Below, piece after piece: positions 15,401-25,034 of a DNA stretch of 49,281 bases. The notes beneath the pieces are model-generated. The model saw nothing but the letters and a program-made list of their open reading frames with translations, had not been told where the DNA came from and did not search any database. Origin of the DNA: a virus. Positions within the stretch are counted from its first letter, which is position 1. Each line of letters starts with the position of its first letter. Position numbers and translations under genes: made by a program. The stretch lies in IMG/VR virus record IMGVR_UViG_3300043419_000444, positions 1 to 49,281 of that record; one strand, 5' to 3'.

Positions 15401-16020
15401 ACCACCTCCACCTCAGGCAATGCTGTCTCCTGCGCCAGCGTGACAGAAAGGTTCATGTGAACGAATCGCGTGGGCTTGTCCGACAGGTTGCGAGTGAACG
15501 CATGGGGCAACCATGAGTTGGTGAGGATCAATGTGCCAGCCTCAGGTGTGAACACGATCTGGTTTGACCCGGGTGTGATCTTGCCCTCGTCTGCCTGCGG
15601 CAGGTTGATGATCACCTTCGCAGGGCGTGGATCGTGGATCACCAGCTTGCATCCGTCGGCAGGCACATCCAAGAAAAAGAATGCGCTGACCTGAGCACCC
15701 ATGCCATGGATGTGGGTCTCCATCGATGACATGCGATTGTGTTCTTGCGTCCACATCTCAGTGAAGTAAGTCACCAAGTTGTCCATCGCATAACCCTGCG
15801 CCGCCAAGATATTCCATGCGGTCTGCGAAACATACTGCGTGAAGTCTTTGATCTCTTCCTCGTGCGAGTAGTTGCCCGTCATGGTCACCACATCATTGCC
15901 AGAAGAATGCTGTTGCAGGTATCGATCCGAAACCGCACTCACCCTCTCGATGAACTCTGGTTTTTTGACCATGTAAACAGGGCACGCAAAGTAGTGGCTC
16001 TCACTCAGTTTGTCCGACAT
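15397..16020 (-). CDS. 2OG-Fe(II) oxygenase
   Basis: Encodes 207 residues fitting the short 2-oxoglutarate/iron oxygenase family found in many aquatic phages. The iron site is read as H-x-H at 103/105 (METHIHGMG), strand AQVSAFFFLDVP, and the distal His173 in SWLPHAFTRN, with an Arg nearby (177 or 185) for 2OG. The N-terminal half is a helical cap. The substrate is unknown; phage members may hydroxylate nucleic acid or protein. It is the first gene after promoter site 4 and shares the operator, so expression is likely early and co-regulated. Confidence 0.75.
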   Translation of the reverse strand: MSDKLSESHYFACPVYMVKKPEFIERVSAVSDRYLQQHSSGNDVVTMTGNYSHEEEIKDFTQYVSQTAWNILAAQGYAMDNLVTYFTEMWTQEHNRMSSMETHIHGMGAQVSAFFFLDVPADGCKLVIHDPRPAKVIINLPQADEGKITPGSNQIVFTPEAGTLILTNSWLPHAFTRNLSDKPTRFVHMNLSVTLAQETALPEVEVV

Positions 16021-16047
16021 TTCATTCTCCGTTTGATGACCCGTCAG

Positions 16048-16078
16048 TCTAACATGGGGTTAGATTTACGAGCGAAAA
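16048..16078 (-). promoter_or_regulatory. Promoter with 17-bp inverted repeat operator, site 4
   Basis: On the minus strand: TTCGCT (~16071-16076), about 19 bases, then TAGACT preceded by TG. The repeat TCTAAC-CCCAT-GTTAGA (16048-16064) has perfect arms and a different 5-base spacer from sites 1 and 2. The oxygenase gene starts at 16020, with GGAG in the short leader. Confidence 0.7.
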
Positions 16079-16281
16079 TTTTGGGCGCACCTGTCGCCCT
16101 TATTCATGCCTTATCGATCCTTTCACCCAAAGACCCCCCTACCCCAGTCAAGGAGTAGAGAGGGAAGGTGCTTCACCCCTGCTACGCAGGATCATCATGC
16201 GACGGATTGGATACCGTCTGCCCCTCGGCTTGATGATTCGACCAGCCGCACGGATTGTTCGGGAACTGCCCCCTAGCCCAT

Positions 16282-16388
16282 GTGATTGATGATGATGGCT
16301 GGTACTGATCTCCAGCTTGGCGACGCCTAGGTCTTCGCCCGTCACAGGTCTTTTGCGCATCAGTCTGCGGGTCACCATCATCAATCAC
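16282..16388. repeat. Inverted repeat, 14-15 bp arms
   Basis: GTGATTGATGATGATGG (16282-16298) faces CCATCATCAATCAC (16375-16388); the arms pair over 14-15 bases if three bases bulge in the left arm. About 76 bases separate them. Confidence 0.65.
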
Positions 16389-16482
16389 ACGGTTGCATAC
16401 CGTGTACGCTTTCCTTCCGCGCCACCACGACTGGGGTGCTTACTTTCGTGCGGAGTACGGGAAGTGAAAAGGGCAAAAAAAA

Positions 16483-16564
16483 TCGCTAAGACAGACCCCG
16501 TTTGGAAAGGCCACCACGGTGAAGCGGTGACAACCCCTTACAGGGCCGGAGTCTGACTTAGCGA
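16483..16564. repeat. Inverted repeat, 18 bp arms
   Basis: The arm 16483-16500 (TCGCTAAGACAGACCCCG) pairs with 16547-16564 (CGGAGTCTGACTTAGCGA) at 16 of 18 positions. The 46-base interior holds CCACCACGGTG and further short complementary pieces, suggesting a branched fold. Confidence 0.65.
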
Positions 16565-16638
16565 CTTTCATCTGCTGGCTTTCCAATTCCAACATTTGAG
16601 CGGATTGTATCAACACGAATCAAACCGTGTCAACACAT

Positions 16639-16703
16639 ACCAACAACCATGAATCTTCACTGTAACTGTGGGCAGGATTGCCCGAAGACTCATGGTTGTT
16701 GGT
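16639..16703. repeat. Long hairpin with nested stem
   Basis: ACCAACAACCATGA (16639-16652) pairs perfectly with TCATGGTTGTTGGT (16690-16703); after one mismatch the stem continues with TCTTC/GAAGA. Inside is a second hairpin, GGGCA-GGAT-TGCCC. About 19 base pairs in the outer stem make this the strongest structure in the region. Confidence 0.75.
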
Positions 16704-16971
16704 GCTCGTCTTTCCGAGCCGCCAGACAGTTCATATCATCACCCATTAGAACTGACAACCATTGGGTGGGAACCCGGTAAGAAACCCACCATTTGCTCTG
16801 GTTGCGGATCGTGGTAACGCTCCACGCTCAATACGGCTTATGAGACCGTTTGGGTCGCTTGACCTATCCGCTGTGTTTGGCTCCGGGTCACCCACCCCCG
16901 GACGCTTTGTCCCGAATCACACGGGCTTGGCCTACTTCACCAGTTCAAGACCGATTACAGACCTCCGAAGG

Positions 16972-17844
16972 TCAGCAGTATACCTGCGCCTTCGTTCTGC
17001 ACTCCATGATCTTGCCCACCACAGCGAACAAACTGTCGCGTAAATGCAAATCGTTGGCGTCTTGACCCACCTCATCAGCCATCGTCCATGGGAGCCCTGT
17101 GGCCATCGCTGACTTCTCACCAGTTTTGCTCTCGTCGTTGTCAGCGAACACAAAGCGGTTGCCTTTGATCTGGTCAGCCACCTGAATCATGTTCGACGCG
17201 CTGAAGCAAATCACCACCGCCGCAGGCAGGCCAACACTGCGCAGTGCGTGACGCACCGACAACCCGGTTGCAAAGCCCTCCACCAGCCACGCCTCAGGCG
17301 CACTGCGGTCACCGAGGTACAGCACAGCATTTTTGGCACGCATGCCCGTCAGCATCTTCTTCTCGTACTTCATCTCGCCGGGCACCCAACGGATCGATTG
17401 GTAGCCCTGCAATTTGTTGGTCGACACATTGCGCATGGGGATCAGCAACTTGTCCTCCAGCACGAGCCCACGGGTCTCTTTAAAACCCTTCAACTCGAGG
17501 TAGGGGTGGTTGTCGTACTTGGCAGAGCGCAGGGTCACATCGGCTTGGAAGGCGGCGTTCTGGTACCGCTTCTCCTGTTCCGTCGCCGCTGAGGCCCTTT
17601 TTGCGGCCCACAAGCGCTTTTCTTCGTCAGTCCATGGTTTGGCATTCTTGTCCTCGTACCAGATCACTCTGGCCTCTCCTGACCAGTTGAACACCCAACC
17701 CCTTTCGCCATCCCACAGATATGAGCCATTCAATGAACGAGGCTTGTCAACCGTCCCACAACGGCGAATTTTGTCGGACGCATAGAACCTTGACGGGTCA
17801 ATCTCTAAACCATGCGCCCTTGCAAAATCAATAAAGTTACTCAC
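16972..17844 (-). CDS. Toprim-type DNA primase, 5' end replaced by a recoded copy
   Basis: Encodes 290 residues from a GTG that overlaps the HNH stop (GTGA). The N-terminal part (RCGTVDKPRSLNGSYLWDG, then GWVFNWSGE) is the start of phage primases lacking the full CHC2 zinc set. The Toprim core has WLVEGFATG (Glu189) and FVFADNDES (Asp235, Asp237), which bind metal for RNA primer synthesis. The first residues MSNFIDFARAHG repeat the dead stub at 18487-18528 (MSFIDFARAHG) with mostly different codons. So the HNH gene lies between the original 5' end and the working gene. Helicase and ParB-like genes are upstream in the same operon. Confidence 0.8.
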   Translation of the reverse strand: MSNFIDFARAHGLEIDPSRFYASDKIRRCGTVDKPRSLNGSYLWDGERGWVFNWSGEARVIWYEDKNAKPWTDEEKRLWAAKRASAATEQEKRYQNAAFQADVTLRSAKYDNHPYLELKGFKETRGLVLEDKLLIPMRNVSTNKLQGYQSIRWVPGEMKYEKKMLTGMRAKNAVLYLGDRSAPEAWLVEGFATGLSVRHALRSVGLPAAVVICFSASNMIQVADQIKGNRFVFADNDESKTGEKSAMATGLPWTMADEVGQDANDLHLRDSLFAVVGKIMECRTKAQVYC

Positions 17845-18401
17845 AGCAATCTCCCGTTTTCGTTAGCCCATGCAATTGGGTCTTTGTTGTACTTTCTCAA
17901 ATTGCAGGTCGGACACAGCAATTCAAGGTTTTCATCTGCGTGCTCACCACCAAGACTGATAGGAATTTTGTGATCCATGTGATGACCAGTTGTTTTTAGG
18001 TTTGAGCCACAGTTTGCACACAAACCTTTTTGCAGGCCCATCAGCTTTTTGACAATGCCATAACTGATCAAGCCCGTTTGTTTTCTGCGAACCGATTTTC
18101 TGTTTTGGTTGTATATCCTCACAAGATCAGGATTTTCTTTTTTCCATTGCTTGCGCTTCTCAGCCTGAACTTCTTTGTGAAGGTCGTTATATTGCCTGCA
18201 TTTTTCCTTGTTGGACTTGCTGTTCAAAAGGTTGTATGTCTTACGGTACTCGGCAATTTTTTCTTTGTTTTGCTCGGCGTATTTTTTTGCCTTTGTCGTG
18301 TGACATTTTTTGCATGCAGAGCGCAATCCGTTCTTTGCGCCTTTTTGTTTTCCAAAGTCAGAAAGCGACTTTTCCTGTTTACAAACAGTACAAGTTTTCA
18401 T
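17841..18401 (-). CDS. HNH homing-type endonuclease inserted at the primase start
   Basis: Encodes 186 residues from ATG 18401, behind GAGAG; a longer frame to 18479 has no RBS and would be Pro/Glu-rich. Near the start is a zinc unit (CTVCKQEKSLSDF, then CKKCHTTK), followed by a repetitive basic helical region and a C-terminal HNH: GLCANCGSNLKTTGHHMDHKI, later LLCPTCNLRK. Its sequence is more AT-rich than the primase. The gene at 18865-19428 is a paralogue (GIVK-LM--QKGLC plus HNH). It splits a 13-codon primase stub from the intact primase gene, as expected for a mobile endonuclease gene. Confidence 0.8.
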   Translation of the reverse strand: MKTCTVCKQEKSLSDFGKQKGAKNGLRSACKKCHTTKAKKYAEQNKEKIAEYRKTYNLLNSKSNKEKCRQYNDLHKEVQAEKRKQWKKENPDLVRIYNQNRKSVRRKQTGLISYGIVKKLMGLQKGLCANCGSNLKTTGHHMDHKIPISLGGEHADENLELLCPTCNLRKYNKDPIAWANENGRLL

Positions 18402-18486
18402 GATGAATCTCTCATGTGAATCAAAGGAAGGTGGGGCAGGCGGTGATTCAATCCGCTCTTCGGGAGCTACCCTAGCCACGCCTTAA

Positions 18487-18528
18487 TCATACTACGCCGT
18501 GTGCCCGTGCAAAGTCGATGAAGCTCAT
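18487..18528 (-). pseudogene. Stub of the original primase 5' end
   Basis: Reads MSFIDFARAHGVV then TGA. The ATG overlaps the stop of the 67-residue gene upstream (ATGA), so it holds the native translation-coupled position. Ten of its residues repeat the start of the working primase (SFIDFARAHG against SNFIDFARAHG), and eight of these ten codons differ only at synonymous positions. It is what remains of the original primase start after the HNH insertion. Confidence 0.8.
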
Positions 18529-18728
18529 TCCTGCCACCCTTGCTCAATTGAGTCCCAATACACGCAAGCGGAATCGATAATGATGTGGCCCTGCATGATG
18601 TCTTCAACCTGCCCACCAAGGCGATAAAAACGGTCTTCACGAAAGCACATCAGGTAGTCTTTGTCTTCGAGCACCACAGTGACTTCGCGCTTGCCCTGCT
18701 TATTGATTTTTTCGCGGATTGTTTTCAT
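18525..18728 (-). CDS. Hypothetical small protein
   Basis: Encodes 67 residues from ATG 18728, overlapping the stop of the 47-residue gene upstream. Beta-rich (REVTVVLEDKDYLMCFREDRFYRLGGQVEDI), ending IEQGWQE. The longer reading to 18788 has no RBS. It sits between helicase and primase. No known family. Confidence 0.6.
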   Translation of the reverse strand: MKTIREKINKQGKREVTVVLEDKDYLMCFREDRFYRLGGQVEDIMQGHIIIDSACVYWDSIEQGWQE

Positions 18729-18868
18729 TCCTGCCACCAGCCTTCCACATACATCTCGTAAAAGCCCCAGCAAATCAGGTATTCCCAACTGCGCTGAGGT
18801 TGCTTTTCTTCCCAGTAGAACTCAGCCATGCGTAGGCACAGTTCTTTGCTTGGTGGTTGTCGGCTCAT
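18725..18868 (-). CDS. 47-residue hypothetical protein
   Basis: Reads MSRQPPSKELCLRMAEFYWE, then continues with aromatic-rich residues ending VEGWWQE. It starts at the stop of the HNH gene upstream (ATGA), whose last codons supply AAAAAAGGAG as its ribosome site, and its own stop overlaps the next start. Trp and Tyr are very frequent. Function unknown. Confidence 0.6.
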   Translation of the reverse strand: MSRQPPSKELCLRMAEFYWEEKQPQRSWEYLICWGFYEMYVEGWWQE

Positions 18869-19428
18869 CGTCCTGCTCCTTTTTTCCATGCGTCAAAATC
18901 TTTTGCACCCTTGGATGTGTTGCAACTCACGCAAAGCAACTGCACATTGGAATCAATGTTCTTACCGCCCTTTGATACCGCCACGATGTGGTCAACATGG
19001 TATCGAGTCACCATTAAATCAACTTGGCATCCGTTGCACAAACCCTTTTGTTTTTCCATCAAAGTTTTGACGATGCCTTTTGACAAAACACCAACAATTT
19101 TTAATCGTCTGTTGTTTTCAAGAAGCCTCTTCAATTCTCTGTTGGCAATCCTCCATGCCTTGCGCTTTTCTTTGTTTTTTGCCTCGTATTCGGCGTGGTA
19201 CGCCTTCAACTTTTCAGCGTTTGCTTGGTTATAGATTTTTTGCTTGGCAACAATTTCTTCTTTGCACCGCTGGTACCGTGCGGCGTTGGTTTTAGAAACC
19301 CTCTCACGGTTTCTTTCCTTCCATGCGGCTTTGATTTCGCGCACGCGATCTGGGTTTGCAAGCCGCCAAGCCTTGGCTCTGTCTCGTGCGGCCTGCTTCT
19401 GTTCCTCCGATAAAACTCGCTTGGTCAT
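18865..19428 (-). CDS. HNH homing-type endonuclease after the helicase gene
   Basis: Encodes 187 residues from ATG 19428, overlapping the helicase stop (ATGA). Residues 1-115 are long basic helices (QKQAARDRAKAWRLANPDR; KLKAYHAEYEAKNKEKRKAW), followed by GLCNGCQVDLMVTRYHVDHIV and LLCVSCNTSKG, the HNH and its Cys pairs. It is paralogous to the HNH gene at 17841-18401. No leftover stub is present here: helicase, HNH and the 47-residue gene abut perfectly. The last codons encode WKKGAGR, close to the WKKGGGK end of the helicase. Confidence 0.75.
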   Translation of the reverse strand: MTKRVLSEEQKQAARDRAKAWRLANPDRVREIKAAWKERNRERVSKTNAARYQRCKEEIVAKQKIYNQANAEKLKAYHAEYEAKNKEKRKAWRIANRELKRLLENNRRLKIVGVLSKGIVKTLMEKQKGLCNGCQVDLMVTRYHVDHIVAVSKGGKNIDSNVQLLCVSCNTSKGAKDFDAWKKGAGR

Positions 19429-20954
19429 TTGCCACCGCCCTTCTTCCACTTCATGTTCAACTGTGTGATTTTATTGTACACATTTTTGGAGATTTCGACA
19501 GTTGGTGCTGTGGAGAAGGCCCATTGAGTTTCTTGGCCTGTTATGTTTTTGAATAAATGCCAAGCCCTTGCGCTTTGCTTTTCTGGCTTTGAATAAGCAC
19601 GAGCATAGGAGGCAACCTGATGCCACAGGTGCTCTGCGTTGTTTGCCAACTTCTTTTTGTTCTTGCCTTCACCGATGAAGATTTCCTTCATGTGGCCCGG
19701 CAATGCCTCGCTGATCTGCGACGACACCTTCTCAAACCCGCAGGCCATGCAACGCTTGTGAAATGGTGTGTAGCCACAGCGTGGGCAACCCTTGTGCTCG
19801 AATTCTTCTTTCGTGCGTGCTGTCTTGTCCAGCTTCTCTCCATCGTCCAACGCATCGAGGCCATTGAAGTAGATGTCGTTGAAGTCTTCGAAGAAGCGCA
19901 CAATGTTGCCACTGAAGTCCAGCAAGTGGCAGTCCTTCTTGTCGGTCTCAGGTGACGAGCGCAGGCCACGGCCCCACATCTGGATTGCAGTGCTCAGTGA
20001 CTTGCGCAGAGGGCGTGCATCGCAGATACAGCCCACATCAGGCACATCAAAGCCCTTTGCCAAGGCTTCCACGCTGATCAACACCTTGAGGTGGCTGTTG
20101 GGCTTGCGGTACTCCTTCAAGAGGTTCTCGCGCTCTTTCGCAGTGGTGTCAGAGGTGAACACCGCCGCCATGATGCCTGCATTGATGAATTGCTTTGCCA
20201 ACTCTTCGCAGTGCTTGATGGTGGCGCCGAACACAATCGTCTTGCGGTTGTCGCCGTACTTCTGCCAGTCCATCACGACATCGCCAATGATCTGCATGCC
20301 GCGCTCTTCAGCCGCACGATCAGTCCACTCGCCACCCTTCATCTCAGCACCGCTCATGTCTGGGCGATGGCAAGAGAAGATGCGCATGGGAACGAGCACG
20401 CCGTTTTGCGTGAGGTCGTACATCGTGGTGGCATTCACGAGGTTCGTGAATATCTTGCCCAAGCCCACAGTGAAGGGCGTAGCAGACAGGCCAATGACAG
20501 CGGCGCCAGTGTTCTTTGCGAACTCAGTCCACGCCTTGTATGTCGTGTGTGCTTCGTCCACCACCAGCACATCCATCTTGGGCCAGAACTCGCGCTTGGC
20601 AATCGTCTGCACTGATGCGATCTGCAACAGGTCATCAGGGCGACGGCGCCAATGGTTGGCTTGGATGATGCCGTGCTCGTTGAGGCCGTAGCGATCAGCC
20701 ACCGCAGAGGTTTGGTCGATCAGTGTGGTGCGGTCGCACAGGAACACTGCACGCTTGCCCTTTTGCATGGCCTCGTTGCAAATGCGCAGGCCAAGGTAGG
20801 TCTTGCCAGCCCCTGTTGGGGCCATGATCAATTGGTTCTTGTGACCGTCCTTGAAACCCTGACGCAGTTCGTTGTGAGCATCGATCTGAAATTGTCGGGG
20901 TGTTGGGAATTTTGATCCATCATCGCGCTCACTTGACGCTAGGACTTGTGTCAT
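19425..20954 (-). CDS. SF2 (DEAH-type) DNA helicase
   Basis: Encodes 509 residues with the superfamily 2 motifs in order: Walker A APTGAGKT (45-52), DEAH (133-136), SATP (157-160), then VEALAKGFDVP and QMWGRGLRSS in the second RecA domain. A zinc unit CPRCGYTPFHKRCMACG (~390-406) lies in the C-terminal extension, as in many phage helicases encoded beside a primase. It should unwind DNA with ATP in replication or recombination. Starts inside the ParB-like gene stop (ATGA). Confidence 0.9.
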   Translation of the reverse strand: MTQVLASSERDDGSKFPTPRQFQIDAHNELRQGFKDGHKNQLIMAPTGAGKTYLGLRICNEAMQKGKRAVFLCDRTTLIDQTSAVADRYGLNEHGIIQANHWRRRPDDLLQIASVQTIAKREFWPKMDVLVVDEAHTTYKAWTEFAKNTGAAVIGLSATPFTVGLGKIFTNLVNATTMYDLTQNGVLVPMRIFSCHRPDMSGAEMKGGEWTDRAAEERGMQIIGDVVMDWQKYGDNRKTIVFGATIKHCEELAKQFINAGIMAAVFTSDTTAKERENLLKEYRKPNSHLKVLISVEALAKGFDVPDVGCICDARPLRKSLSTAIQMWGRGLRSSPETDKKDCHLLDFSGNIVRFFEDFNDIYFNGLDALDDGEKLDKTARTKEEFEHKGCPRCGYTPFHKRCMACGFEKVSSQISEALPGHMKEIFIGEGKNKKKLANNAEHLWHQVASYARAYSKPEKQSARAWHLFKNITGQETQWAFSTAPTVEISKNVYNKITQLNMKWKKGGGK

Positions 20955-21769
20955 TTTTTGCCTTTCAGCTTGTCGAGTTCTTTTTGCAACTTCTTGACCA
21001 TCTTCACGGCCTCGTTGCGCTCATTCATGAGGCCATGCAAACGCACCTCCAGTTGACCGTTGAGCAGGTTCAGGCGCTTGATTTCCTCGTGCGCAGTAGC
21101 CAATGCATCGTCGGACTCCAACAGCTTGTACATGGCCTCCATGTCGGCCTGCACAGCCAATTCGTTGGCCTTCAACTCGTCGTCATCAGGTGCCTCACCT
21201 GCGGTTGGATCAGCCGGAGCAACAGGTGTTGTTTTTTCGCTACTAGTTGAACTAGTAACTACTTCGTTTTCAACTTTCTCTGCCTCCTCCTTGACCTTCT
21301 TCTCCATGTGGCGCTTGAGGTTTTCCTTCTGCTTTTTCTTTTTCTCAGGGTCTTTCACGCCAGCCACAAACGACTGAGACACCACGCAAATCTTTGCGAT
21401 TTCGTAGTTGGACTTCTCAGCCAGCAGTGGGTTTGCCAACGCATCTTCGACGACCTTTTTCTTGTCCTCGAATGAGCGTGGCAGACCGTGCTTGGCGTTC
21501 ACACCGTATGAGCGGATGACGGCCTCTGCTTGTGTGCCGGGCACATACTTCAGCGTCACCTCTTTGATGCCCATCAACTTGTAGGCGTGGTAGCGGTGGA
21601 ACCCGTCAACCAACCAGTAAGTCGAGCCGTCGAAGTTGGTGTCGATGGGATCGAATTCGTACCCCTCCTTCATCATCTCGACCATTTGGTAGACATGCTG
21701 TTGATCGATGACGACACGCCCTTGTGTGCCGCCGTCGATACGGATGTCATTCAGTTTCACAGTTCTCAT
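20951..21769 (-). CDS. ParB/sulfiredoxin-fold protein
   Basis: Encodes 272 residues from ATG 21769, behind GGAGATTGAT. The N-terminal ParB fold shows YWLVDGFHRYHAYKLMG (DGFHRYHA 55-62), matching the G-x-x-R-x-x-A loop that binds nucleotide in ParB-type proteins. A helical middle (NYEIAKICVVSQSFVAGV) could be the DNA-binding part. A Thr/Ser/Pro-rich linker holding TSSTSS, encoded by a copy of ACTAGT-NNN-ACTAGT, is followed by an acidic stretch and a C-terminal coiled coil (~225-272). Phage ParB-like proteins may act in segregation, replication or nuclease roles; which applies cannot be told. Second gene of its operon. Confidence 0.75.
   Translation of the reverse strand: MRTVKLNDIRIDGGTQGRVVIDQQHVYQMVEMMKEGYEFDPIDTNFDGSTYWLVDGFHRYHAYKLMGIKEVTLKYVPGTQAEAVIRSYGVNAKHGLPRSFEDKKKVVEDALANPLLAEKSNYEIAKICVVSQSFVAGVKDPEKKKKQKENLKRHMEKKVKEEAEKVENEVVTSSTSSEKTTPVAPADPTAGEAPDDDELKANELAVQADMEAMYKLLESDDALATAHEEIKRLNLLNGQLEVRLHGLMNERNEAVKMVKKLQKELDKLKGKK
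21241..21257. repeat. Palindrome TACTAGTT-G-AACTAGTA, copy 2
   Basis: A perfect 8+1+8 palindrome inside the ParB-like gene, in its Ser/Thr linker (T-S-S-T-S on the minus strand). Related to 12041-12059 and 46423-46439. Confidence 0.7.
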
Positions 21770-21798
21770 ATCAATCTCCTTAAAAACCCAACATCGGG

Positions 21799-21999
21799 TC
21801 AATCAAACAAGTCCGGGCGCAGTTCTTTTTTTGTCACGAGACCTTGTGTGGCCTTCTCAATTTTTTTTGCTAACTCTGGTGACGGTCGTCGCGCCTTGCG
21901 GATCAACAGCCCCAACCAAGTTTGGGTGATGCCAAGGTACTCTGCCATCTCTTTTTTCGCACCGTATGGCTCGTCCTTGAAATACTGCTTCAGGTTCAT
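21799..21999 (-). CDS. Small HTH regulator (Cro/YdaS-like)
   Basis: Encodes 66 residues behind AAAGGAGGTTGC. The whole protein is a helix-turn-helix of the Cro/YdaS type: GAKKEMAEYLGITQTWLGLLIRKARRPSPELAKKIEKATQG, with AEYLGITQTWLGLLI as the HTH. It is the first gene of the replication operon and lies beside the divergent promoter region with two overlapping copies of the shared operator. A self-regulating DNA-binding protein here is the natural candidate to read all six operator copies; that link is inferred. Confidence 0.8.
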   Translation of the reverse strand: MNLKQYFKDEPYGAKKEMAEYLGITQTWLGLLIRKARRPSPELAKKIEKATQGLVTKKELRPDLFD

Positions 22000-22020
22000 G
22001 CAACCTCCTTTCTTTGCAAG

Positions 22021-22039
22021 AGTCTAACACAGAATCAAA
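22021..22039 (-). promoter_or_regulatory. Promoter/operator site 5, leftward half of the divergent pair
   Basis: On the minus strand TG-T-TAGACT gives an extended -10. The repeat (22023-22039) reads TTTGAT-TCTGT-GTTAGA: the -10-side arm is perfect, the other arm is degenerate. It drives the HTH, ParB-like, helicase and primase operon starting at 21999. It shares five bases with site 6. Confidence 0.6.
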
Positions 22040-22052
22040 TTTCGTGTTATAG
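22035..22052 (+). promoter_or_regulatory. Promoter/operator site 6, rightward half of the divergent pair
   Basis: On the plus strand TCAAAT-TTCGT-GTTATA (22035-22051) has the same spacer as sites 1 and 2, and TG-T-TATAGT forms the -10. The leader contains CGGTC-GCGTT-GACCG (22061-22075) and GTCC-TACG-GGAC, then GGTTTACACAGGAG before the SSB-like ATG at 22114. Confidence 0.65.
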
Positions 22053-22113
22053 TCTTTCCACGGTCGCGTTGACCGGGTTAGTGTCCTACGGGACGGTTTA
22101 CACAGGAGTAATC

Positions 22114-22770
22114 ATGAGTTTTTATGTTGAAGACAAGGGCGGCAATTTCGAGCGTTGCCCCTCTGGAATGCACCTCGCTCGTTGCTATCGAATCATCGAT
22201 CTCGGCACACAAAAATCAGAGTACATGGGGCAGACAAAGTACCTGCACAAAGTGATGTTGGGATGGGAAATCCACGGCATGCACGATGACGGCACGCCAA
22301 TCAAGATGCAGGACGGTCGTCCCTTCGCCATCTTCAAAAACTACACACTCTCTTGGTCAGAAAAAGCAAACCTCCGTCTGGACTTGCAGTCATGGCGTGG
22401 TCGTCCGTTCTCGCAGGAAGAGATGCGCAAGTTCGACTTGAAGAATGTGCTCAATGCATGGTGCATGCTGAACATCATCGAGCGCCCCGGCAAGAACGAC
22501 AACAAGATTTACACCAATGTCGATGGTGTCACTCCTGTGCCGTCGATCTACAAGCAAAACGGTTTGCCTCAAGCTGTGAACAAAGATGAGTTGTTCAACA
22601 TCAGTGAGCCCAACATGGAAATGTTCAACGGTTTCAGCGACAACCTGAAGGCCAAGATTTCCAACTCACCAGAGTGGCAGAAGTTGCACGGCAAGATCAA
22701 ACAAGAGGATCGACCAGATGTTGGCTCTGCACCGCCTGCATTTGATGACGACGATTCGATTCCGTTCTAA
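22114..22770 (+). CDS. Single-stranded DNA-binding protein-like phage protein
   Basis: Encodes 218 residues from ATG 22114 behind ACAGGAG. The C-terminus DDDDSIPF (211-218) is the acidic tip typical of SSB proteins, which binds partner enzymes. The body begins with a beta-rich region (GNFERCPSGMHLARCYRIIDLG) as in a phage protein group encoded next to RecB-type exonucleases. The role is therefore probably ssDNA coating in replication and recombination. First gene of the plus-strand operon behind site 6; the exonuclease follows three genes later. Confidence 0.7.
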   Translation: MSFYVEDKGGNFERCPSGMHLARCYRIIDLGTQKSEYMGQTKYLHKVMLGWEIHGMHDDGTPIKMQDGRPFAIFKNYTLSWSEKANLRLDLQSWRGRPFSQEEMRKFDLKNVLNAWCMLNIIERPGKNDNKIYTNVDGVTPVPSIYKQNGLPQAVNKDELFNISEPNMEMFNGFSDNLKAKISNSPEWQKLHGKIKQEDRPDVGSAPPAFDDDDSIPF

Positions 22771-22780
22771 GGAGACCGAT

Positions 22781-22954
22781 ATGTCAGATTTTTTCAAGTG
22801 GTTGGGCGACTTTTGCCCACTCGTCTTGTGGGGGGTAATCTGGATTTCGGTCTTGCCAATGCGCTTGTTCTTGTTGGTGTTGCTACCCAAGAACGCCAGC
22901 GATTGGCACCACCCTGCTCACCCTTTGTATCAATATCTTGCGTTTGAGAGGTAA
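22781..22954 (+). CDS. Small membrane protein
   Basis: Encodes 57 residues behind AAGGAGACCGAT. One long hydrophobic stretch (CPLVLWGVIWISVLPMRLFLLVLL) would span the membrane once or twice, followed by a short His/Pro-rich tail. Function unknown. Confidence 0.6.
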   Translation: MSDFFKWLGDFCPLVLWGVIWISVLPMRLFLLVLLPKNASDWHHPAHPLYQYLAFER

Positions 22955-22957
22955 ACC

Positions 22958-23107
22958 ATGTGGCAATTTTTAGGCTTCGCCTGCGGGGCCGCATGGCTCA
23001 CGCACATCTTCACCTGCTTTGCACAGGGTCTATGGGGCTTCTTGGTGGCTGGCGCCATCTTCTTCCCCATCGGCATCTTGCACGGGTTTTATCTCTGGCT
23101 TCATTAA
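22958..23107 (+). CDS. 49-residue membrane protein
   Basis: Reads MWQFLGFACGAAWLTHIFTC, then continues with a second hydrophobic helix and ends LWLH. Starts three bases after the previous stop. Two short membrane helices with Trp/Gly/Phe. Function unknown. Confidence 0.6.
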   Translation: MWQFLGFACGAAWLTHIFTCFAQGLWGFLVAGAIFFPIGILHGFYLWLH

Positions 23108-23116
23108 GGACAACAC

Positions 23117-23158
23117 ATGAGCACAATCATCGCCCGGTCGGCTGAATACCATTGGTAG
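23117..23158 (+). pseudogene. Stub of the original exonuclease 5' end
   Basis: Reads MSTIIARSAEYHW then TAG, ten bases after the previous gene and behind AAGGACAAC. It repeats the start of the working exonuclease 550 bases downstream (MTTIIARSSENTHW). Five of the six codons for TIIARS differ only synonymously (ATC/ATT, ATC/ATT, GCC/GCT, CGG/AGG, TCG/TCT). It is the severed original start left by insertion of the HNH gene. Confidence 0.8.
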
Positions 23159-23194
23159 GTATACAATGAAGTCCTGTTCATCAAAAGGAAAGCC

Positions 23195-23671
23195 ATGACG
23201 CAACAAGACTTCATTGACAGGTTTGAGTACCGAGACGGCAAATTGTTTTACAAAAAATCAGAAGGATGCATGAAGCAAAACTCTGAAGTAGGGACGGTGT
23301 GCAAAGGTGGATATTTGAAAACTTTGATTAACCGCAAACCATATCGTTTGCACAGAATCATTTTCATGATGCACCACGGTTACCTTCCTCAATTTCTTGA
23401 TCACATTGATGGCAACCCAGCCAACAATCGAATTGAAAACCTGAGGCCAGCCACATCATCTCAAAACAATTTGAATCGTGGGAAACACAAACGAAACATC
23501 TCTGGATACAAAGGTGTCACATGGGTAGCTTCCTCAGGTCGCTATTCAGCACGAATTGCAGTAGGCAACAAAAGAATTTTTCTTGGGTACTTTGATGATC
23601 CAAAAAAAGCGCATGAGGCCTACTGTGAATTTGCTCAAAAAAATCAACCTCAATATGTGAGAACACAATGA
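23195..23671 (+). CDS. HNH homing-type endonuclease with AP2 DNA-binding domain
   Basis: Encodes 158 residues behind AAAAGGAAAGCC. Residues ~50-95 are the HNH of the intron/free-standing phage kind (RLHRIIFMMHHG, then FLDHIDGNPANNRIENLR), and 104-148 an AP2-type DNA-binding domain (GYKGVTW...YSARI...GYFDDPKKAHEAY). It is clearly AT-richer than its surroundings. Its stop overlaps the exonuclease start (ATGA). It differs in architecture from the HNH genes at 17841 and 18865, yet shows the same insertion pattern: dead original stub upstream, recoded target gene directly downstream. A TATACAAT just ahead might serve as its own promoter. Confidence 0.85.
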   Translation: MTQQDFIDRFEYRDGKLFYKKSEGCMKQNSEVGTVCKGGYLKTLINRKPYRLHRIIFMMHHGYLPQFLDHIDGNPANNRIENLRPATSSQNNLNRGKHKRNISGYKGVTWVASSGRYSARIAVGNKRIFLGYFDDPKKAHEAYCEFAQKNQPQYVRTQ

Positions 23672-24456
23672 CAACAATTATTGCTAGGTCTTCGGAAAAT
23701 ACCCATTGGTACCGTCAAGACGGTGGCCCACAGTACACCGTGAAGGCAAAGGACGGCTCAGACCGCCCCACGACCCTCAGGGACGCACGAAAGATGGACT
23801 TGGTACCTTCGGTCACCACCGTCATGAAAATCGCCGCCAAGCCCGGTTTAGAGCAGTGGAAGCTGGAGCAAATGCTCTTGTCTGCCCTGACCTTGCCGAA
23901 GTTTGACCACGAGGACGAAAAAGCCTACATCGCACGCATCGTTGCCGACTCCAAAGAGACTGGTAAGCAGGCCGCAGAGAAGGGTACGCGCATCCACGAG
24001 TCCATCGAGTCATGGTTCGACGGCAAGAAGGATGTTGTCCACAAAGACATCGCCTTGGCCTTTGAAGAGCACATCTTCAACCACTTCAAAACCCACCCAG
24101 ATCAACCATGGCTCACTGAGCGTGCGTTTGCATCACCCTTGGGCTTTGGTGGCAAGGTGGACTTGTTCTGCGAGGCTGACCAGCATGCGCCTGTGGGCAT
24201 CGTGTTGGACGCCAAGTCGAAGGACTTCGGCCCCGACGACAAAGTGGACGCATACGACGAGCACCTGATGCAGTTGGCGGCGTACCGCAATGGCCTCAAC
24301 CTGCCACACGCTCGTTGCGCGAATGTGTTCGTCTCTCGCACTCACCCCGGCCTTGTGAAGGTGGTCGAGTGGCCTGAGGAAGAACTGGTCAAGGGTTGGG
24401 AGATGTTCCAGTGCCTGCTTCGTTTTTGGAAACTCAAAAACAACTTCGGGGTATGA
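23668..24456 (+). CDS. PD-(D/E)XK exonuclease (RecB/Cas4-like), recoded 5' end
   Basis: Encodes 262 residues. Motifs of the RecB-type nuclease are in order: GTRIHESIE (His110), Glu151 region (LTERAF), GGKVDLF (Asp165), VLDAKSK (Asp181, Lys183), and HLMQLAAY (Gln202, Tyr206). It should degrade dsDNA ends for recombination, probably with the SSB-like protein upstream. Its first ~14 codons, MTTIIARSSENTHW, duplicate in recoded form the stub at 23117, so the present start came in with the HNH gene. Confidence 0.85.
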   Translation: MTTIIARSSENTHWYRQDGGPQYTVKAKDGSDRPTTLRDARKMDLVPSVTTVMKIAAKPGLEQWKLEQMLLSALTLPKFDHEDEKAYIARIVADSKETGKQAAEKGTRIHESIESWFDGKKDVVHKDIALAFEEHIFNHFKTHPDQPWLTERAFASPLGFGGKVDLFCEADQHAPVGIVLDAKSKDFGPDDKVDAYDEHLMQLAAYRNGLNLPHARCANVFVSRTHPGLVKVVEWPEEELVKGWEMFQCLLRFWKLKNNFGV

Positions 24457-24457
24457 C

Positions 24458-24811
24458 ATGGAACCACTACAACAACGCGCATTCGAGTCTGCGATCAAGA
24501 CGCTCCAGAACATGGGTTGCAAGTATGTGGTGATCGACCCAGACGGCAACAAGCACGGCACTCTTGAGGATGAAAAGAAGAAGAAGGTCTACCGCTACAA
24601 ACACGGCGAGGTGACTGAGTTCATCAAAAACCAACTTGGTGGCAAAACACCAGAGGTCGGCGTGTCTGGTGAAGTTGACTGCGGCGCATTTGACCCTGAG
24701 ACGGTGCGTAGTAGTTTGATCAACCTCACGCACAAAGAGTCCGGCAACGGAGCAATGACCACGCAGGTCAACCGCGACACAAACAGAGTAATTTTTTACA
24801 GAGCCTTTTAA
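24458..24811 (+). CDS. Hypothetical phage protein
   Basis: Encodes 117 residues starting one base after the exonuclease stop. The first half (AFESAIKTLQNMGCKYVVIDPDGN) is a small alpha/beta unit; then Lys-rich (KKKKVYRYKHGEV) and a final beta portion. This gene type often follows phage recombination genes. No known function. Confidence 0.6.
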   Translation: MEPLQQRAFESAIKTLQNMGCKYVVIDPDGNKHGTLEDEKKKKVYRYKHGEVTEFIKNQLGGKTPEVGVSGEVDCGAFDPETVRSSLINLTHKESGNGAMTTQVNRDTNRVIFYRAF

Positions 24812-24821
24812 GGAGAAAACC

Positions 24822-25034
24822 ATGGCTGAACAACGCATCTACAAAGTCACCAACGGTGACAACACCTACCTCGTGCAGGCCGCAAGCCAAGCACAAGCCC
24901 TTCGTCATGTGGCAGGCAAAACCTTCACTGTCGAAGTTGCAAAGGCCATCGATGTCGCCACCCACATGATGCGTGGCGCCACAGTGGAAGTCGCTGTCAT
25001 GTCGGCAGAGCAAACATCAATCGAAGGAGTCTGA
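24822..25034 (+). CDS. Hypothetical small protein
   Basis: Encodes 70 residues behind AAGGAG. Compact alpha/beta: RIYKVTNGDNTYLVQAASQA, a helix (QALRHVAG), then KTFTVEVAKA. The 'yrv......rLVrAasqaqAlrhva' pattern is common among short phage proteins and resembles a small modular domain. Function unknown. Confidence 0.6.
   Translation: MAEQRIYKVTNGDNTYLVQAASQAQALRHVAGKTFTVEVAKAIDVATHMMRGATVEVAVMSAEQTSIEGV

Follow-up and report, generated by a model that had tools for sequence, protein, structure and literature searches.

A probable end-replacing HNH homing element at the primase start of a metagenomic phage

Main finding

The start of a phage primase gene appears to have been exchanged by a mobile endonuclease gene. 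In the window, i.e. the whole stretch of 49,281 nt analysed here, which is a single metagenomic virus record (IMG/VR IMGVR_UViG_3300043419_000444), comparison with related loci places an HNH endonuclease gene just inside the start of the primase. Upstream of this gene, the start that the recipient once used persists as a short stub, and the primase now begins with a foreign tract related to that of another carrier of the same element. We interpret this feature as an end-replacing phage HNH homing element, which cuts the conserved end of a gene and brings along a cleavage-resistant replacement, and put the probability of this reading at about 85 %. There are three end-replacing elements in the window, two at 5′ ends and one at a 3′ end.

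Layout at the primase start

On the minus strand, the order at the primase locus is an upstream gene ending in ATGA, stub 1, a leader, the endonuclease gene HNH1 and the primase, with the following features:

18487–18528, minus strand: stub 1, the native 5′ end of the primase, MSFIDFARAHGVV followed by a stop (ATG at 18528, TGA at 18487); from the sequence and comparison with relatives
18402–18486, minus strand: leader of element 1, 85 bases; from an Rfam match and homologous leaders in other loci
17841–18401, minus strand: HNH1 endonuclease gene, 186 aa; Pfam HNH (PF01844), 5e-14
17844 to 16972, minus strand: primase, GTG start, 290 aa, MSNFIDFARAHGLEIDPSRF; similar to phage primases, PHROG 2249
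17688–17844, minus strand: foreign 5′ tract of the primase, a replacement start of some 52 codons that is coupled to the stop of HNH1; from the mosaic test and GC content (0.49 vs 0.57)
16972–17687, minus strand: remaining primase, native backbone; from identity to the loci L039, L004 and L005

The ATG of stub 1 overlaps the stop of the upstream gene, native sequence reaches to about 18493 with the element (GTATGATT) running on from there, and the primase GTG overlaps the HNH1 stop by 4 nt. The HNH1 protein has a MKTCTVCK motif at its N-terminus and the HNH at its C-terminus, with the DH and N residues of the motif preserved in the alignment. Over the codons S F I D F A R A H G, stub 1 and the primase start show eight synonymous differences in ten codons, the other two (TTT and GCA) being identical. 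The original prediction had described this layout exactly, i.e. the stub, the HNH gene, the primase from GTG 17844 and the eight synonymous codons, with coordinates and codons reproduced here.

Past the primase, at 16140–16970, lies a long stretch holding no convincing gene and a strong inverted repeat (ACCAACAACCATGA...TCATGGTTGTTGGT).

Primase relatives and origin of the new start

For comparison of the primase, close relatives were gathered from 38 IMG/VR loci and two phage records. Intact primase starts are nearly all MSFIDFARAHGV or differ little from it, lacking the window's extra N, and stub 1 is therefore in line with the empty alleles, as it had to be on the original prediction. Most primase loci have no HNH gene of the HNH1 kind at the start; three do, i.e. 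the window, L040 and L015. Locus L040 shows the full layout, with the stub MTFIDFARAHGVV followed by a stop, an HNH protein 65 % identical to that of the window and the primase MNGFINFARMHGLEI, and L015 is a stubless variant of the element. The left junction CAYGGCGTR/GTATGATT is common to the window and L040, with stubs of different lineages. The differences between these two stubs are almost all synonymous, so that both seem to be recent derivatives of working primases, each from its own lineage. At the primase junction the natives have HGV or HGI (in one case NV) and the window and L040 have HGL; such changed residues in carriers may come along with the element by inheritance and not by selection.

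Up to about codon 45 of the window's primase, L040 is the closest relative or about equal to the others, after which L039, L004 and L005 are closest; over codons ~50–140, identity is mostly 77–88 % to these three and 57–72 % to L040. A permutation test with L040 as donor placed the border of this mosaic at nt ~156 (p=5e-5 with the recipients L039, L004, L005 and L002), and gave p=3e-4 with recipient L038 and a non-significant p of 0.15 with recipient L001. Stub 1 is nearest to L039 and L005 (4/30 differences), i.e. to the clade of the primase backbone, and shows 12 differences from the L040 start. By these comparisons the window's primase is a hybrid, in which ~52 codons resemble another carrier and the rest resembles insertion-free relatives. 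The original prediction had kept insert and new start within ~13 codons, which proved too short for the foreign part. Of the comparison loci, L001 (at 6001) has a primase start like the carrier starts and no HNH gene seen adjoining it, and is perhaps a former carrier.

It had also been proposed that the new start was recoded. Over nine core codons, stub 1 and the new primase start differ at 7 of 27 nt, equal to the median difference between two insertion-free primases; the longest stretch over which they agree exactly, 6 nt, is short but not exceptional, being found in 13 % of native pairs. An ordinary diverged donor allele is therefore sufficient to explain the new start, and the proposal was not borne out; deliberate synonymous recoding, as a candidate explanation, was rejected as unneeded given the divergence among native starts.

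That the nuclease gene is flanked by two copies of a gene start might also point to target-site duplication or slippage, i.e. a start doubled at insertion, one copy of which diverged afterwards. However, the dead copy matches natives and the live copy matches another carrier, and the hybrid breakpoints lie inside the gene, so that the mosaic tests contradict this origin and we regard it as highly improbable.

Leader RNA of element 1

An int-alpA-type structured RNA leader travels with the primase element. Its 5′ edge carries a −10-like TATGAT, followed by the int-alpA-type structured RNA (18482–18413, minus strand) and the ribosome-binding region. Against the Rfam family int-alpA (RF02996), the window's leader scores 30.4 bits (E 0.0036), below the gathering score of 35.8, and homologous leaders lie above that score in L040 (39.0), L015 (39.6), L086, L109, L111 and L152. 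The second hairpin shows compensatory variation (GCGG/CCGC, GCAG/CTGC, GGCG/CGCC), and a TGATTC further downstream has the complementary sequence to its loop, TGAATCA; thermodynamic folding of the leader alone was no better than that of shuffles (z −0.2). In the leader of L086 (2896–3003), the loop and its downstream complement are both altered (CGTTAC/GTAACG), and a second complementary copy (ATAACG) lies beside the ribosome-binding site. This joint change of the loop and both complements makes an RNA switch possible, and it is tempting to conjecture that the leader acts as a translation switch.

The int-alpA RNA or close homologues of it, with a −10-like box at the 5′ end, stand directly before HNH genes of several subtypes and architectures (in the window, L040, L015, L086, L109, L111, L114, L118, L128, L144, L152, L153 and L162), and int-alpA-type RNA is possibly a general leader of phage HNH homing genes. 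A leader variant (GGCTAGGGTAGCTCCCGAAAAGC) was seen before large primase/RepA-like genes, not HNH genes, in L096, L108, L140, L142 and L165.

A structured RNA between stub and HNH gene would also be expected of a self-splicing intron, the leader being part of the intron and the stub its 5′ exon. The primase ORF, however, is complete without splicing, and no Rfam intron family was found in 16000–25000, even at E values up to 5, which makes this explanation extremely unlikely; group I and group II introns were rejected, as no intron core RNA match was obtained around the ORF in Rfam (E up to 5).

Two further elements in the window

The second element lies on the other strand, at the start of an exonuclease gene:

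23117–23158, plus strand: stub 2, the native 5′ end of the exonuclease, MSTIIARSAEYHW followed by a stop; from identity to insertion-free alleles
23195–23671, plus strand: HNH2 endonuclease gene, HNH_3 plus AP2; from Pfam, with an architecture different from that of HNH1
23668–23725, plus strand: foreign 5′ tract of the exonuclease (replacement start), to about the HWY motif; from similarity to the carrier L189 and the mosaic test
23726–24456, plus strand: remaining exonuclease, native backbone, PHROG 298; from similarity to natives

As the original prediction stated, the HNH gene at this site is of a different subtype (HNH_3 plus AP2 vs PF01844 for HNH1 in Pfam). The first 29 nt of stub 2 (23117–23145) match two empty exonucleases, L183 and L192, at every position (29/29). 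In L063 the stub shows an equally complete match (29/29) to other empty alleles, L177 and L180, and the left junction GCWGA/ATACCAWT is common to the window and L063, their stubs again being of different lineages. The first 60 nt of the window's exonuclease share 90 % identity with the carrier L189, and none of the natives compared exceeds 73 %; over nt 60–120 most natives reach 88–97 % and L189 68 %, and the permutation test for this mosaic gave p values of 1e-4 to 5e-4 with the border at nt 34–59. The residue two before HWY is S in 60 of 63 unique native starts and N, Q or G in most carriers, which read ENT, EGT, EQN, EGG or ESG at that motif.

Most exonuclease loci are free of an HNH insertion. 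Carriers of the HNH2 type with a stub are L061, L063, L065 and probably L067, and the same HNH occurs without a stub in L062, L064, L066 and L068; such relatives show that the stub is not obligatory. The left end of element 2 (window 23146–23170; L061–L068) forms an imperfect palindrome ATACCAWT..GGTATACAAT, possibly a promoter and operator.

Part of this variation suits a variant of the homing model, in which an ordinary intergenic HNH homing gene cuts its neighbour, one end is repaired by donor homology and the other is joined illegitimately, leaving the stub as a scar with no selected rescue function. The four stubless carriers, the variable junctions in L061, L065 and L067, the presence of ATACCATT both at the end of the preceding gene and at the left end of the element in L062, and the ordinary divergence of the new start all fit such a one-sided accident, but the left junctions are identical between the window and L040 and between the window and L063, next to stubs of different lineages. 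We consider this variant a serious possibility, if not the one that we favour.

The third element is a mirror image of the other two, at the 3′ end of a helicase gene, which HNH3 follows:

18865–19428, minus strand: HNH3 endonuclease gene; Pfam HNH, 2e-10, on the longer ORF 18865–19449
19425–19700, minus strand: foreign 3′ tract of the helicase (inner border approximate); from identity and GC drop
18865–18891, minus strand: stub 3, the native helicase 3′ end (AWKKGAGR followed by a stop), now the end of HNH3; from comparison with MW202545

For the helicase, the evidence comes from a direct comparison with MW202545. The last 27 nt of HNH3 are identical (27/27) to the helicase end of MW202545, to which the end of the window's helicase has 11 mismatches in 27 bases, and identity of the helicase to MW202545 (also given as to L039) falls from 83–97 % to 59–66 % over the last ~250 bases, with the GC content of the 3′ tract down to ~0.38–0.43. 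No relatives of HNH3 were found in IMG/VR, and an unbiased 3′ mirror screen gave nothing above noise for HNH genes (40 HNH pairs). The original prediction, which had been restricted to gene starts and had not noted HNH3, was in this respect too narrow. At three genes of this one phage, and also in its relatives, the comparisons show an HNH gene lying between a stub of recipient origin and a foreign gene end.

Recurrence across phage genomes

The HNH_3/PF01844 matches in the window are three genes (HNH1, HNH2 and HNH3), all three with the stub layout, and the layout recurs on independent IMG/VR contigs, both at the primase (L040, and stubless L015) and at four other genes. Further stub cases were found at an MRKK gene (L109, L128), at an MNQL gene with a 24-codon stub (L318) and at an MEKSMALFLA gene (L072, L267), whose stub forms an in-frame fusion with the HNH gene; in L072 (2961–3480), translation of the HNH gene thus seems to begin at the start that belonged to its target.

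Loci that had been fetched for kinship to the window's genes, not for stubs, were screened for a downstream N-terminus repeated upstream of the first gene (at least 7 of 12 residues). Such repeats were found in 7 of 53 HNH gene pairs vs 8 of 3193 others (p=1e-9) and, at a threshold of at least 8, in four HNH pairs vs one other (p=3e-7), i.e. they are more frequent beside HNH genes, as the original prediction had implied. Its view that chance is unlikely gains from this excess together with the same arrangement on independent contigs, and its doubts about assembly error were likewise upheld. The window being one metagenomic virus record, an assembly chimera of two strains might be suspected, but the same layout and junctions occur on separate contigs of other samples (L040, L061, L063, L109, L128) with the reading frames coupled, and the probability of such an artefact is minimal.

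In a wider HNH-AP2 sample, repeats of at least 7/12 were rarer (3/179 HNH pairs vs 1/1516), and no stubs were found in the T5-like phage Shivani, which has many HNH genes, or in Enterobacter phage ENT1. Because of the wider sample and Shivani, the stub form is best described as a recurrent minority of phage HNH insertions. Of the general strategy originally suggested, recurrence, the tie to HNH genes and the spread over several genes hold, but universality does not, given the stubless exonuclease carriers and Shivani.

Proposed mechanism

In a co-infected cell, the HNH enzyme would cut an empty primase allele near codon 12, at the stub junction, and the break would be repaired from the carrier genome, the nuclease gene being copied in with the diverged primase start. 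This start would restore the gene and no longer be cut, leaving the hybrid resistant. The overlap between the HNH stop and the primase start probably ties translation of the primase to the HNH gene, so that loss of the latter would probably be discouraged. The stub may serve as a homology arm, similar to the FBA1 fragment in the WHO model (see below), or be a scar of one-sided repair; the former role is favoured by shared junctions, the latter by variable junctions or the lack of a stub. One point against the homing model is L015, which carries the element with a primase that is native-like from codon ~6 onward; its nuclease would then recognise a different site, unless the element is dead.

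The homing model accounts for a puzzle, namely the short repeats of gene starts next to HNH genes of phages, makes the stub junction the predicted cut site, offers a route by which essential phage genes acquire foreign ends and renders a natural cut-and-rescue drive simply testable in the laboratory. Rather doubtful, in our opinion, is a broad class of natural phage home-and-rescue elements. Each would have a promoter end, an int-alpA leader possibly switching HNH translation and an HNH nuclease belonging to one of several subtypes; an essential gene would receive, in place of its cut end, a version with an altered target, in which the amino acids at the cut position have changed so as to escape the nuclease.

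Comparison with known systems

In T4-like phages, free-standing homing endonuclease genes lie at important genes, with co-conversion of flanking sequence, and some are inserted in genes, according to parts of one account (PMC2988022). The gene described here resembles them as a phage nuclease gene at an important gene and has the traits of a free-standing phage HNH gene, i.e. its own ORF outside an intron and a sporadic distribution with empty alleles in relatives. In contrast, the mobA and mobE insertions split a gene into two coding parts, and the parts of that account drawn on here do not describe a replacement start with a dead stub for T4-like homing genes (PMC2988022).

HomeR, an engineered CRISPR-based home-and-rescue drive, cuts an essential gene and carries a resistant rescue copy, as outlined in its abstract (PMC7968924). 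The likeness is one of logic; the phage elements are natural, and recoding beyond ordinary divergence was not seen in them.

Mobile ORFs in the mitochondria of Allomyces and Glomus follow the logic of the phage elements, as do the WHO elements treated below: a nuclease ORF has been inserted with a foreign gene end and the native end is kept as a duplicate, the native copy clustering with its species and the inserted copy elsewhere (PMC3630166). Nuclease ORF, foreign gene end and retained native end are found together as in the phage elements; the differences are that these ORFs are mitochondrial, concern C-terminal ends and encode LAGLIDADG or GIY-YIG nucleases (PMC3630166).

The WHO elements of Torulaspora and Lachancea yeasts consist of an endonuclease gene beside a conserved gene, FBA1; on homing, one end of that gene is swapped for a diverged resistant version and the recipient's old end is left as a fragment on the other side, with resistance due to allelic differences and allele-specific cleavage demonstrated (PMC7282813). 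Similarly, the primase, exonuclease and helicase of the window are chimeras of a recipient body and a donor end, and the old gene end is kept beyond the nuclease gene (29/29 and 27/27 matches for stubs 2 and 3; stub 1 in the backbone clade). The WHO nuclease is HO-like (LAGLIDADG) and nuclear and swaps the FBA1 3′ end, whereas the phage elements have HNH nucleases of two architectures, act mostly at 5′ ends, possess coupled frames and, in element 1, a structured RNA leader, and their cleavage is predicted from the sequences. Since their nuclease is HNH by Pfam and not of the LAGLIDADG WHO/HO lineage, the phage elements are not members of the WHO family. We found no description of a phage version of end-replacing homing in the open-access papers searched. 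The elements described here would thus extend end-replacement homing, a mode described in yeast nuclei and in the mitochondria of fungi, to bacteriophages and HNH nucleases, and to several genes of phage DNA metabolism.
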